Source of the DNA: Kaistella pullorum
Lineage (GTDB): Bacteria; Bacteroidota; Bacteroidia; Flavobacteriales; Weeksellaceae
DNA: 64,000 nt
Assembly (NCBI RefSeq): GCF_014837035.1
Contig: NZ_JACSPS010000003.1
Span: 186,001 to 250,000, forward strand
Direction of reading: 5' to 3'
In this document: positions 34,451-49,201 of the stretch, piece by piece
How positions within the stretch are numbered: the stretch's first letter is position 1
How the letters are laid out: each line of letters starts with the position of its first letter
Program-made: the position numbers and the translations under genes
Notes under the pieces: model-generated
Database searches by the model: none
The model's input: the letters and a program-made list of their open reading frames with translations, nothing else
What the model was told of the DNA's origin: nothing

Positions 34451-34654
34451 ATGGATATTAAAAGTAAAAAATACTGGCTGATCGCGGCCATCACTTTCAT
34501 CGTCCTTTTCCTCATGAACTATTTGGGAAATGACCAGGCCGACAGGCTCGAGCGTGCGCTGATGACCGCCGCGGCGGGCGTGGTGGGCCTCACCATCGGC
34601 ATGTGGTTCGTCTTTAGGAACTCTAAGGATGACACCTACCACGATTTCGACTGA
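34451..34654 (+). CDS. Small two-helix membrane protein
   Basis: A 67-residue protein with a charged start (M-D-I-K-S-K-K-Y-W) and hydrophobic helices at about 9-24 and 37-55. It ends in an acidic tail (D-D-T-Y-H-D-F-D). Three bases from the preceding barrel gene, so in the same operon. No family recognised. Confidence 0.7.
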   Translation: MDIKSKKYWLIAAITFIVLFLMNYLGNDQADRLERALMTAAAGVVGLTIGMWFVFRNSKDDTYHDFD

Positions 34655-34660
34655 TCTTTT

Positions 34661-34735
34661 TTGGGCGGACATTTCCCGCTGTCCGCTGTATCCCGCCGCG
34701 GCGGGGATGCCGCTTCCATCGGGGCCGCAGACCGT
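34661..34735 (-). repeat. Structured intergenic element, copy B
   Basis: On the minus strand this GC-rich stretch reads GCCCCGATGGAAGCGGCATCC (34705-34725), then a 12-base palindrome CCGCCGCGGCGG, then GATACAGCGGACAGCGGG (34675-34692). It shares both conserved arms with copy A at 35850-35937 on the plus strand, with a different apical hairpin. It lies in the gap before dusB. It is probably a member of a dispersed family; no coding potential. Confidence 0.75.
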
Positions 34736-34825
34736 CTCTAATTCCACATTCCGTTTTGGATCGAAAGTACTCCGTTTACGTTCTGCCGTACTTTACGTTC
34801 TGCCGGAGAGTTTCCGCATATTTGG

Positions 34826-34833
34826 TATCTTTG
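34826..34833 (+). promoter_or_regulatory. -7 box (TATCTTTG) upstream of dusB
   Basis: TAnnTTTG ending four bases before the dusB ATG, again implying a leaderless mRNA. No -33 TTG at the right spacing. Confidence 0.45.
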
Positions 34834-34837
34834 CACC

Positions 34838-35827
34838 ATGATAAAAATCGGGAATATAGAGCTGCCGGAATTTCCGTTATTGCTCGCACCAATGGAAGAT
34901 GTTTCAGACCCGCCGTTCCGCCGGCTTTGCAAAATGCACGGTGCTGATCTGATGTATTCCGAATTCATTTCTTCCGAAGGTCTCATTCGCGATGCGATGA
35001 AAAGCCGCAAAAAACTCGATATTTTCGATTACGAAAGACCTGTCGGCATCCAGATTTTCGGTGGTGATGAAGAAGCGATGGCGCTTTCCGCGAAAATAGT
35101 GGAAACCGTAGAACCCGACCTGGTAGACATCAACTTTGGCTGCCCGGTAAAAAAGGTAGTTTGCAAAGGCGCCGGCGCCGGCGTTTTGAAAGACATCGAC
35201 CTGATGATAAAACTTACGAAAGCCGTGGTGAATTCCACACACCTTCCCGTTACCGTAAAAACGCGGCTTGGATGGGATACAGAAGGTATCAATATCATGG
35301 AAGTAGCTGAAAAGCTGCAGGATGCGGGTGTAAAAGCGCTAACGATTCACGCGCGAACCAGAGCACAAATGTATAAAGGTGAAGCCGATTGGAATTACAT
35401 TCACGCTGTTAAGAACAACCCGAATATTGAGATTCCTATTTTTGGCAACGGCGATGTAGATTCTCCACAAAAAGCGCTGGAATACAAACAAAAATACGAT
35501 TGTGACGGCATCATGATCGGTCGCGGTGCCATCGGTTATCCGTGGATATTCAATGAGATCAAACACTTTTTCGAAACCGGAGAGATTTTACCCGAACCCA
35601 CGATTACAGACCGTCTGCTCGCCGTGCGTCAGCACGCCGAGTGGAGCGCAGAATGGAAAGGTGAAAGACTCGGACTGATCGAAATGCGCCAACATTACAG
35701 CAATTATTTCCGCGGTATCCCGCATTTCAAAGATTTCCGCCGGAAATTCCTGGAGGTTTTCACGCTCGGGGAAATGGATGGGGTCATCGCTGAAGCCGCT
35801 GACTTCTACAAAGAGTTTTCTTATTAA
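34838..35827 (+). CDS. dusB: tRNA-dihydrouridine synthase B
   Basis: A 329-residue flavoenzyme reducing uridine to dihydrouridine in the tRNA D-loop. L-A-P-M-E-D-V-S-D near the start binds FMN. The catalytic cysteine is in N-F-G-C-P-V-K-K (Cys102). V-K-T-R-L-G-W, H-A-R-T-R-A-Q and G-N-G-D-V plus I-G-R-G-A-I-G-Y-P complete the barrel. It is flanked on both sides by copies of the same structured intergenic element on opposite strands. Confidence 0.95.
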   Translation: MIKIGNIELPEFPLLLAPMEDVSDPPFRRLCKMHGADLMYSEFISSEGLIRDAMKSRKKLDIFDYERPVGIQIFGGDEEAMALSAKIVETVEPDLVDINFGCPVKKVVCKGAGAGVLKDIDLMIKLTKAVVNSTHLPVTVKTRLGWDTEGINIMEVAEKLQDAGVKALTIHARTRAQMYKGEADWNYIHAVKNNPNIEIPIFGNGDVDSPQKALEYKQKYDCDGIMIGRGAIGYPWIFNEIKHFFETGEILPEPTITDRLLAVRQHAEWSAEWKGERLGLIEMRQHYSNYFRGIPHFKDFRRKFLEVFTLGEMDGVIAEAADFYKEFSY

Positions 35828-35849
35828 GTACTGTATTTTATTTGCCGCG

Positions 35850-35937
35850 GAAATCCCTAGCCCTGATTGCAGCGGCATCCTTTTTTGACGAGGAACGAGG
35901 AGAAAAAGATACAGCGGAAAGCAGGTACCCGGCTCCT
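35850..35937 (+). repeat. Structured intergenic element, copy A
   Basis: Downstream of dusB: GCCCTGATTGCAGCGGCATCC (35860-35880), a variable middle T6-GACGAGGAACGAGGAG-A5, then GATACAGCGG and AAAGCAGG (35908-35925), ending GGCTCC. Complementary segments (AGCC/GGCT, CCTG/CAGG, ATC-TTTTT/AAAAA-GAT) suggest a stem with an apical hairpin. The conserved arms match copy B on the other strand. I recall similar strings from intergenic regions of Flavobacteriia, but could not check. Confidence 0.75.
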
Positions 35938-39061: not shown

Positions 39062-39090
39062 ATAACTGCAGAAAAATTTAGTGGCCGTAA

Positions 39091-39122
39091 AAAATCCCAT
39101 CAAACTCAATTGATGGGATTTT
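39091..39122. terminator. Bidirectional hairpin terminator
   Basis: A perfect 13-bp stem (AAAATCCCATCAA / TTGATGGGATTTT) with a 6-base loop between convergent genes. It serves the lipoprotein gene (plus) and the envelope operon (minus). Confidence 0.9.
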
Positions 39123-39143
39123 TGTAAATATTTAAGTTTTTAT

Positions 39144-39800
39144 TTACTGAAAAATATAACTCAGACCAAGGCTGAAGACCTGCTCGGTCTTGCGTTTCGA
39201 AATATTCGGGTCGCTGCCGTTTTCGCTCATCAGACCTTTGTAGGTATTGCTGAGTCCGAAATCGTAACGGCTGGTGATTTCAAACTGACGCTTTAGCGAA
39301 AATCCAACTCCAATGCCCAGCGCAAAATTGAAAGACGAAGCTTTTCCGTTCACCTCGCCCTCACCTTCTACGGTATAGCGTTGTGGTGCATTCTTGATAT
39401 TTTGGCTCATCAGAAAATTAAATTTCGGACCGGCCATCGCAAAAAATTCGGTTTCAGCTTCAGAAAGATAGGCCTTAAAATAGACCGGTACACTGATGTA
39501 GTTATTAGCATATACCGCGTCATAGCCCGGATAAGCTTCTGCATCTTTGTCCTTACCTGTTTCGCCGGCACCCAGATATTCAATGCCGGGCTGTAGGTAA
39601 AACTGGTCACTGCTGTCTACCGGAATAAGTGCCAAGACTCCTCCAAAACCCGAATAAATAGGACCCGAAGGATTGTGCGCGTTGGTCACCCGCGAATACG
39701 TACCGCCGGCTGTGAGGCCGAAACGCGTGCTGCGTAAATCAATCTGCGCGGCCACAAAAGTAGCTGCGCAGAGTGCTGAACTGATTAGTAGTTTTTTCAT
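39144..39800 (-). CDS. Outer-membrane beta-barrel protein (PorT-like)
   Basis: A 218-residue exported protein. The signal peptide ends F-V-A-A-Q (residue 19). The mature part has amphipathic strands (F-G-L-T-A-G-G-T-Y-S-R-V, F-Y-L-Q-P-G-I-E-Y, F-A-M-A-G-P-K-F-N-F-L) of the outer-membrane beta-barrel/porin family common in Bacteroidota. It ends L-S-Y-I-F-Q. It lies 18 bases after sucD and is probably co-transcribed. Confidence 0.82.
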   Translation of the reverse strand: MKKLLISSALCAATFVAAQIDLRSTRFGLTAGGTYSRVTNAHNPSGPIYSGFGGVLALIPVDSSDQFYLQPGIEYLGAGETGKDKDAEAYPGYDAVYANNYISVPVYFKAYLSEAETEFFAMAGPKFNFLMSQNIKNAPQRYTVEGEGEVNGKASSFNFALGIGVGFSLKRQFEITSRYDFGLSNTYKGLMSENGSDPNISKRKTEQVFSLGLSYIFQ

Positions 39801-47591: not shown

Positions 47592-49133
47592 ATGGCAAAA
47601 TTGATATGGATTGATGATGAAGTAGATTTACTAAAGCCTCATATTGTCTTTCTCGAAAATAAAGGATACAAAGTTTCACCCGTAAACAATGTAAACGAAG
47701 CGCTGGAAATGATCGAAAAAGAAAATTTTCAGCTCGCACTGCTCGATGAGAACATGCCCGGAATTGCGGGTCTGGAAGCCATACCGATGATTAAAAACAT
47801 CGATTCGGCAATAAAGATTGTGATGGTAACGAAAAATGAGGAAGAACAAATTATGGAGCAGGCCATCGGTTCGCAGATTGCAGATTATATCCTGAAACCT
47901 GTAAATCCAAACCAGGTTTTGCTTTCACTGAAGAAAAACCTGCAGGAAGACACTCTTGTTGAACAAAAAACCATTCTGGAGTATCAGCAGGAATTCCGCA
48001 ACCTTTCTATGGAACTGTCTTACATGAAAACATTTCAGGATTGGGCGGAGTATTACAAGAAAATCCTGAACTGGGAAGTGAAATTCGACAAGGTTTTCGA
48101 TAATGAATTTGCAGATTTGCTGCAATCTCAAAAAGAGGAAGCCAACATCCAGTTTTCAAAATTCATTGAAAACAACTACGAAGAATGGCTTCAGAGCAAT
48201 GATAAGCCGATAATGAGCCATACGCTCTTCAAGGACAAAATAAAACCTGAAGTCGAAAAAGACAAGGTGCTTCTGCTGATGATCGACAATCTGCGCTACG
48301 ACCAGTGGAAAGTCATCGAACCTCTTTTTACTAAATTTTACAACAAAACATCTGAGGATTACTATTTCAGCATTCTGCCGACAGCTACGCAGTATGCGCG
48401 AAACTCCTTCTTTGCCGGACTTTTGCCTTCAGAAATTGAAAAAAGATTTCCGCAGTTTTGGTTTAATGACAACGAAGAAGGCAACAAAAATGAGCATGAA
48501 CGCGACTTCCTGGAAGACCAGATGAAACGCTTAGGCCTTTCGGGCAAGTCTATGAAGTACCTTAAAATTCTGAATGCGGATTTTGAACGTAAGATCTTAG
48601 ACGATTTTAATCAGCACAAAAACAACGATTTACTTGTAATTGTTTACAACTTTATCGATATACTTTCACATGCCAAAACCGACAACGTAATCGTAAATCA
48701 ACTGATCCGTGATGACAAAACCTTCCGTTCACTTACGTACAACTGGTTCGAGAATTCGTCGCTGATTAAACTTATAAAACAGGCTGCTGAAAATGGTTTT
48801 AAACTCGCCATCACCACGGATCACGGCACGATTTACGTCAAAAAACCGAGCAAAGTAGTCGGTGACCGCGAAACATCTACCAACATCCGTTACAAAACCG
48901 GGCGTAGCCTTACGTACGAAAACAACGATGTCTGGGCCATTTCGAACCCTGAAAAACTGTTTTTACCGAAAGGAAACCTGAGTTCAAAATATATTTTCGC
49001 GAAGAACAATACGTTTTTGGCCTATCCGAAGAATTACAACCACTTTGTGAATTATTATAAGGAAACCTATCAGCATGGCGGGATCTCGCTTGAAGAGATG
49101 ATCATCCCCATCAGTATCTTAGAACCCAAATAG
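47592..49133 (+). CDS. porX: PorX response regulator with PglZ-type phosphatase domain
   Basis: A 513-residue two-domain regulator. The receiver domain (1-120) has the acidic pair Asp8/Asp9, phospho-acceptor Asp52 (L-L-D-E-N-M-P-G), Thr80 and Lys102. A helical linker leads to a PglZ/alkaline-phosphatase-superfamily domain with L-L-M-I-D-N-L-R-Y-D-Q-W and T-T-D-H-G. This is PorX, which with PorY controls type IX secretion and gliding genes in Bacteroidota; the PglZ domain of PorX is reported to act on oligonucleotides. No PorY kinase is adjacent. A terminator follows. Confidence 0.95.
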   Translation: MAKLIWIDDEVDLLKPHIVFLENKGYKVSPVNNVNEALEMIEKENFQLALLDENMPGIAGLEAIPMIKNIDSAIKIVMVTKNEEEQIMEQAIGSQIADYILKPVNPNQVLLSLKKNLQEDTLVEQKTILEYQQEFRNLSMELSYMKTFQDWAEYYKKILNWEVKFDKVFDNEFADLLQSQKEEANIQFSKFIENNYEEWLQSNDKPIMSHTLFKDKIKPEVEKDKVLLLMIDNLRYDQWKVIEPLFTKFYNKTSEDYYFSILPTATQYARNSFFAGLLPSEIEKRFPQFWFNDNEEGNKNEHERDFLEDQMKRLGLSGKSMKYLKILNADFERKILDDFNQHKNNDLLVIVYNFIDILSHAKTDNVIVNQLIRDDKTFRSLTYNWFENSSLIKLIKQAAENGFKLAITTDHGTIYVKKPSKVVGDRETSTNIRYKTGRSLTYENNDVWAISNPEKLFLPKGNLSSKYIFAKNNTFLAYPKNYNHFVNYYKETYQHGGISLEEMIIPISILEPK

Positions 49134-49166
49134 TTTTTTTCATAGTTTATTTAATTTGGGTTGCGA

Positions 49167-49201
49167 GGCGGAAAAAATCAATGATTTTTTCCGCCTTTTT
49201 T
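49167..49201 (+). terminator. Terminator after porX
   Basis: GGCGGAAAAAATCA and TGATTTTTTCCGCC are perfectly complementary around one base, followed by a run of T. It ends porX transcription just before the xth promoter box. Confidence 0.85.

Follow-up and report, generated by a model that had tools for sequence, protein, structure and literature searches.

The window, a 64 kb stretch of Kaistella pullorum DNA, carries a putative dusB gene (34838-35827, plus strand), a tRNA-dihydrouridine synthase-like reading frame that owes its name to the initial annotation. It is preceded by a 67-aa reading frame (34451-34654, plus strand) that stops just before the first of two structured elements; many relatives show a comparable frame ahead of dusB, and the upstream gene differs in some dusB loci. 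Two copies of a conserved element had been placed on opposite strands flanking dusB, and both their positions and the quoted arms were reproduced in the window sequence. The accompanying guess that they might belong to the Flavo-1 motif turned out to be right: both match the Rfam family RF01705 above its gathering score of 42 bits. Copy A, which is sense to both neighbours, matches at 35855-35932 of the plus strand (57.2 bits, E 8.2e-10), and copy B, which is antisense to both, at 34668-34730 of the minus strand (47.8 bits, E 3.3e-7). These E values, which refer to a search of the 64 kb window with 4227 families, are far beyond chance, and no other Flavo-1 match was found in the window at an E of 5 or lower. 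By identity, copies A and B are thus members of an ordinary Rfam family. Rfam matches to IsrM (49124-49200, plus strand) and ncr1175 (39089-39160) elsewhere in the window score far below their cut-offs and are probably due to chance.

The Flavo-1 match corresponds to an inner core, which is enclosed in outer sequences, here called shells, that fall outside the Rfam model. Copy A with its shell extends from TAGCC to CGGCTCCT (35858-35937, plus strand), as judged from the sequence and the Rfam match, with probable shell ends taken from the comparison of copies. Its core consists of a 5' arm (35862-35880) and a 3' arm (35908-35925), both delimited by the Rfam alignment and pair counts, and of a tip (35881-35907) that recurs in other species. 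The comparison of shell classes suggests an outer stem between AGC (35859-35861) and GCT (35932-35934), followed by CCT; this stem is absent from single-sequence folding predictions. Copy B with its shell and an A-run occupies 34657-34730 of the minus strand, with a core 5' arm at 34704-34723 and a core 3' arm at 34675-34694. By comparison, its outer stem would pair GCGG (34725-34728) with CCGC (34665-34668), and would be followed by CC (34663-34664) and the A-run (34657-34662). The same shell recurs in another copy of the genome (L015) and at a relative's dusB locus (L118). Constant arms with a variable apical hairpin had been proposed for both copies, and this reading is correct. The further description of their middles as unrelated and self-complementary applies only in part to copy A, the tip of which is paired only through a T-run and an A-run: its inner GACGAGGAACGAGGAG is no ordinary palindrome. 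It is not random either, as it occurs with at most one mismatch in 14 places in 10 out of 60 genomes.

Four shell classes and one further form were distinguished. Class I consists of TAGCC, the core, about 30 nt and TTGCTCCTAAA; class II, to which copy A belongs, of TAGCC, the core and GCTCCTGAAA; class III pairs, for example, GCAAT with ATTGC or GCGTG with CACGC and has an extra hairpin; class IV, that of copy B, pairs GCGG with CCGC; and the further form pairs GCGCC with GGCGC. Shells terminate in CC or CCT, and an A-run frequently comes next. When 87 elements were sorted by pattern, with at least two copies mis-sorted (L016 of K. pullorum and G017:C6:482), 47 fell into class I, 21 into class II, 9 into class III and 3 into class IV, and 7 stayed unsorted. 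The same kinds of shells also contain a second core, GAACGG..TGTTTGAGCTC ... GCGAGTAGTG (12 distinct examples), for which Rfam listed nothing at E 0.1 or better at the five dusB loci bearing it; at least one copy of it scores weakly as Flavo-1 (28.9 bits). The exact pattern of this second core was found 1 to 7 times each in 32 of 36 genomes of the genus, in none of 24 genomes from outside the genus, and never in the reversed control. In several class I copies, a strand ahead of TAGCC looked by eye as if it could pair with one downstream of the core; a pseudoknot or ribozyme-like fold of these shells is not claimed on such by-eye pairing.

The suggestion that the element is under selection for RNA or DNA structure is upheld by covariation. 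When 26 copies are aligned, 97.4% of 544 cells are paired, compared with 73.7% in shuffles and with 44.5 to 57.4% when the partners were slid. The worry that there might be no covariation proved unfounded, as 136 cells changed on both sides, 6 changed on one side only, and 14 are unpaired. RNAalifold was also applied in the structure analysis. A structure above shuffled controls was thus supported by covariation, but not by the folding energy of single copies: against dinucleotide shuffles, the sense strands of copies A and B gave z-scores of 0.27 and 0.64 as RNA, and -0.30 and 0.94 as DNA. All z-scores lay between -0.62 and 0.64 as RNA, with one exception on the antisense strand of copy A (-1.45), and between -0.30 and 1.38 as DNA. 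As single copies fold no better than shuffles, folding energy was dropped as a proof of structure.

The arms covary almost without wobble. In 87 of 88 model-found elements, those that could be parsed, the arm helices comprise 679 Watson-Crick, 4 G-T and 13 other cells of 696. Since these copies came from a structure model, the count was redone on arms found by sequence (97 five-prime arms, of which 83 with a partner were kept and 14 without one were dropped). It gave 412 Watson-Crick, 2 G-T and 1 other of 415 cells, where independence predicts 56.7 G-T. As yardsticks, 37 tRNAs of the relative G017 have 66 G-T of 792, and 286 predicted terminators have 168 G-U of 2591 pairs (465 of 3633 when shuffled). 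The tips of 83 elements have 31 G-U of 993 pairs (323 of 2741 in shuffled tips), which is only a twofold difference from terminators; it is the arms that stand out. The arm helices are broken by four conserved mismatches, which are G.A in 87, 86, 84 and 87 of 87 elements. Helices of RNA accept G-U pairs and usually change by way of them. Covariation through all four pairs almost without wobble therefore fits selection or repair at the DNA level, and the evidence leans to DNA rather than RNA as the pairing molecule.

Far from being limited to two copies, Flavo-1 has 39 matches in the K. pullorum genome (G000) at E 0.001 or better, 33 of them over the cut-off, and this number may be low because 150 of 492 first-look candidates were scored. 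All 36 searched genomes of the genus, K. pullorum included, have matches (5 to 62 each), as do 42 of the full set of 60 genomes covered by the same search and at least 28 of 198 in a survey of the phylum in which 22 candidates were scored per genome; the taxonomic range, Bacteroidetes, is the same as that of RF01705. With 39 copies, about 0.7 pairs at a spacing of 1.2 kb are expected by chance according to our arithmetic, so that the special meaning attached to the pair around dusB finds no support. We read the flanks of dusB in 24 same-genus loci (260 nt upstream of the start and 220 nt downstream of the stop), and only the K. pullorum locus and L118 of G010 have an element on both sides. A dusB-specific role was rejected on account of the near-chance spacing and the double flanking in only 2/24 loci.

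A class II element lies within 220 nt downstream of dusB in 8 of the 24 loci, and none was seen in the other 16. Its core is Flavo-1 in G000 and G013, a c form below the cut-off (34.1 bits) in G003, the second core in G006, G008, G010 and G012, and, by eye, a diverged second core in G016. Seven of the 3' ends were readable, and they read TTCCCGGCTCC in six and TACCCGGCTCC in G000. A tree of 25 dusB genes leaves one origin and several origins of this downstream element unseparated. Upstream of dusB, the shell of copy B occurs in 1 of 23 other loci (G010), with a different core subtype and tip.

Site retention between species is established by two genome comparisons. For the close pair G018 and G017, 15 of the 46 copies of G018 were compared: 14 are at the same site in G017, and the remaining site is a partial deletion there. 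The core differs at two of the shared sites (L229 and L241) and the tip at one (L221). Over the 14 loci, identity is 95.1% in the 5' arm, 92.6% in the 3' arm and 80.1% in the tip, so tips change most; it is 85.9% in the 5' flank and 92.8% in the 3' flank, which include coding sequence, and the arms are not clearly more conserved than the flanks, so that this comparison does not by itself argue for selection on the arms. In the second comparison, 30 of the 39 K. pullorum copies were taken and 25 were placed in G017. The matching interval holds an element in 12 cases, is short and without an element in 8, has an odd hairpin in 1 (L018), and is long without a listed element in 4. Judged by eye, the shell class agrees in 11 of the 12 shared intervals (the exception being L003), and the core subtype differs in 7. 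Clearly, cores or tips have changed within retained shells: sites in common mostly keep their shell class, and their core or tip may be replaced, among others by the second core. A clean insertion with target duplication was not seen, there being no clean empty site in the 15 G018/G017 comparisons, and the 8 empty intervals of G017 are too diverged from K. pullorum to show the element ends.

It is equally established that near-identical cores occupy different sites in different species. Copy A is identical in 79 of 80 positions to a copy at G017:C7:23915, a different site; the dusB of G017 is on C6 and is not followed by an element. The 14 places with the tip of copy A (at most one mismatch, 10/60 genomes) are all within the genus. 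Among the eight loci read, two are beside dusB (G000 and G032), six have class II shells, one (L373) has a class I shell, and one (L372) resembles class I on its 3' side and has an interrupted arm; a further case, in G022, lies 98 nt beyond dusB by coordinates. The occurrence of the same tip at different sites and in more than one shell indicates copying or exchange in the past. At L372 (G005:C2:552179), which has the same tip as copy A, a short palindromic stretch breaks up the 3' arm. The intergenic region G017:C8:256807-257510 contains a degenerate repeat of about 70-90 nt (AAATT.GCCGCTAAAAGC..GAATTTTT-like), which was also glimpsed upstream of several other elements.

The orientation of the elements to genes is mixed, with an antisense excess. 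Out of 57 loci (58 were given and one was dropped; gene calls were crude), 26 copies are antisense to both neighbours, 9 are sense to both and 22 are mixed; among 42 copies of G017 the corresponding numbers are 14, 8 and 20. With respect to replication, 22 of 31 copies of G017 follow the direction of the bias, in regions set by eye after the skew had been seen and with 11 of the 42 copies omitted (10 on a contig without clear skew and 1 on a short contig). The dnaA gene of G017 is away from the skew switch. In three complete genomes, a maximised permutation test gave p values of 0.04 (G032), 0.59 (G012) and 0.21 (G019). The replication-strand bias is therefore weak and no more than hinted at.

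Taken together, these results are best explained by a chromosomal, non-autonomous DNA-hairpin repeat that spread in the past, is now mostly inherited vertically, and exchanges its cores in place. We regard this explanation as having an even chance of being correct, and do not go higher because the conservation of arms relative to flanks was weaker than first noted; the failure to find an enzyme or a clean insertion, the folding energies of single copies, the weak strand bias, the presence of some G-U in tips and the coincidence of several 5' transcribed regions with Flavo-1 matches in F. psychrophilum (PMC9723704) also count against it, and the absence of G-T could also reflect palindrome repair in an RNA gene. 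Copies A and B would then be members of a dispersed chromosomal palindromic DNA repeat with Flavo-1 as its inner hairpin. Its purine-rich strand would fold into a rod of short Watson-Crick helices, broken by the conserved G.A mismatches and capped by the variable tip, and this rod would be enclosed by an outer stem ending in CC or CCT, often with an A-run. The acting molecule would most likely be single-stranded or extruded DNA, not a transcript, and past copying or exchange may have been carried out by a putative enzyme recognising the folded strand. A stronger reading is possible, but rather doubtful: Flavo-1 would then be no RNA, but would belong to a set of interchangeable DNA-hairpin cores (forms a, b and c of Flavo-1, a short form, and the genus-restricted GAACGG...TGTTTGAGC form), which a replication-linked process or a putative recombinase that recognises hairpins would swap in long-lasting shells. 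The nearly wobble-free covariation, the shells and the in-place core change are new relative to the Rfam family and deserve a second look. The shells, the second core and the DNA reading go beyond the description of Flavo-1 in Rfam (RF01705) and in the accessible text of PMC2864571, and no proposal that Flavo-1 acts as DNA was found in the open passages and listings consulted on Flavo-1/RF01705. If the folding molecule is DNA, annotating dozens of Flavo-1 small RNAs per genome misleads, and the enzyme of a dispersed DNA-hairpin repeat with exchangeable cores is still to be found. Additionally, wobble-free covariation is a simple test that could be applied to further RNA families for which comparative genomics is the sole source.

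Known systems resemble this putative DNA-hairpin repeat in part. In integrons, attC sites act as a folded single strand with conserved arms, unpaired bases and a variable terminal structure. The likeness to Flavo-1 lies in the folded strand, the conserved arms and the variable tip, and is one of resemblance; no cassette array was noticed. MITEs are likewise non-coding, dispersed and palindromic; they have terminal inverted repeats with target duplication, which the sites compared did not reveal for Flavo-1, and no parent transposon was found. The repeats of REP/RAYT systems are, according to the available text of PMC6006769 and PMC3733652, likewise short, palindromic and intergenic, with mismatched stems and tens of copies per genome; in contrast to them, Flavo-1 has no link to Y1_Tnp beyond chance, and the GT[AG]G tetranucleotide is missing from the hairpin foot of copies A and B. 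G-T pairs, nearly absent from Flavo-1 arms, are "often observed" in GTAG repeats as described in the text seen of PMC3733652, which suggests that many of those act as RNA. Single-stranded DNA and RNA have been weighed against each other for another motif, STAXI, in the part of PMC2864571 consulted. As for mobile replicons, two queries against 72,556 plasmid records returned nothing beyond short matches attributable to chance (E 0.02 or worse), a single query of 50,697 phage records returned no match, and two exact arm patterns, representing two core forms only, had no match in viral contigs.

The main alternative is that Flavo-1 acts as RNA, either as a structured small RNA or as an untranslated-region hairpin that is, for example, bound by a protein. 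Sheared G.A pairs stabilise RNA too, so the conserved mismatches are also compatible with it. Rfam lists Flavo-1 under the type "Gene; sRNA", and Weinberg et al. (2010), in the accessible text of PMC2864571, regarded it as "probably" RNA, not cis-regulatory and not a switch. In Flavobacterium psychrophilum, the text available of PMC9723704 reports that several 5' transcribed regions coincide with Flavo-1 matches, but also that these are indistinctly sense or antisense and that many are outside transcribed regions; this evidence is mixed as regards transcription, and its orientation part counts for DNA. As only 2 of the 415 arm cells are G-T, where independence would give 56.7 and tRNAs have 66 of 792, and as the orientation is mixed with an antisense excess, we consider an RNA unlikely. 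A host landmark, that is, a site in chromosomal DNA to which a nucleoid, replication or repair protein binds and which is kept for its use rather than as a parasite, would account for the long retention of sites, for the absence from phages, viral contigs and, beyond short chance matches, plasmids, and for the hint of strand bias in G017 and G032. Such a landmark appears improbable in view of copy numbers from 5 to 62 between congeners, of a strand bias that is not clear in G012 and G019, and of the 8 out of 25 placed copies that face a short, element-free interval in G017. A transcription terminator or an insulator between genes is very improbable. The 3' end of the element lies a median of 37 nt from the stop codons of opposing genes (36 cases, crude gene calls), and in 5/47 class I copies the 3' part (GGAGCAAC...GTTGCTCC or similar), beside an A-run, resembles by eye a terminator for the opposing strand (L003 of K. 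pullorum, L033, L036 and L037 of relatives, and G017:C10:32511). Against this, neither strand of copies A and B has a T-run immediately behind the hairpin, and, read along the upstream gene, the T-run of copy B comes ahead of its hairpin.

It is also quite unlikely that Flavo-1 is the REP of a Bacteroidetes-type RAYT (TnpA-REP subclass 2.6) and is mobilised by the RAYT protein. According to the text seen of PMC6006769, genes of this subclass are flanked by atypical hairpins that lack the usual GTAG foot and have copies elsewhere in the genome, so the lack of such a foot in copies A and B does not speak against this subclass. A Flavo-1 match was found by Rfam at only 2 of 36 scanned Y1_Tnp loci, one of them below the cut-off, where Flavo-1 density predicts about 1.7 by our arithmetic. 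The scan was limited to one Pfam family and a few genomes per relative, with L107-L110 and the remaining Y1 matches outside it; it included YIHQNP, YVHQNP and YIHNNP proteins (L092, L093 and L103). Moreover, Flavo-1 has 42 matches in G017 and 46 in G018, two genomes in which Y1_Tnp has none. That such a link is detectable by a scan follows from Acido-Lenti-1 (RF01687), which was found beside Y1 genes. On this near-chance association, the Y1 transposase/RAYT link was set aside and kept as a weak rival to the non-autonomous DNA-hairpin repeat. The single Y1_Tnp match of K. pullorum (G000:C21:170549-170890) is in a 155-aa frame with YIKNQQSHH, which resembles the motif of the poorly known subclass 1.2 as given in the accessible part of PMC6006769.

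The Acido-Lenti-1 matches themselves lie upstream and on the other strand, 35, 101 and 43 nt from the edge of the Y1_Tnp match in three genomes, two of these three close cases being below the cut-off, and 837 nt away in a fourth genome (G052:C34:30827-30872, G042:C21:32243-32287, G008:C1:226923-226967 and G030:C1:2159890-2159935). Altogether, 30 Acido-Lenti-1 matches were found in 13/60 genomes, most of them not near a Y1 match. Instead of an RNA, Acido-Lenti-1 may be the end hairpin of a transposon or REP. At G001:C14:42936-43205, four tandem matches of equal score are spaced 75 nt apart.
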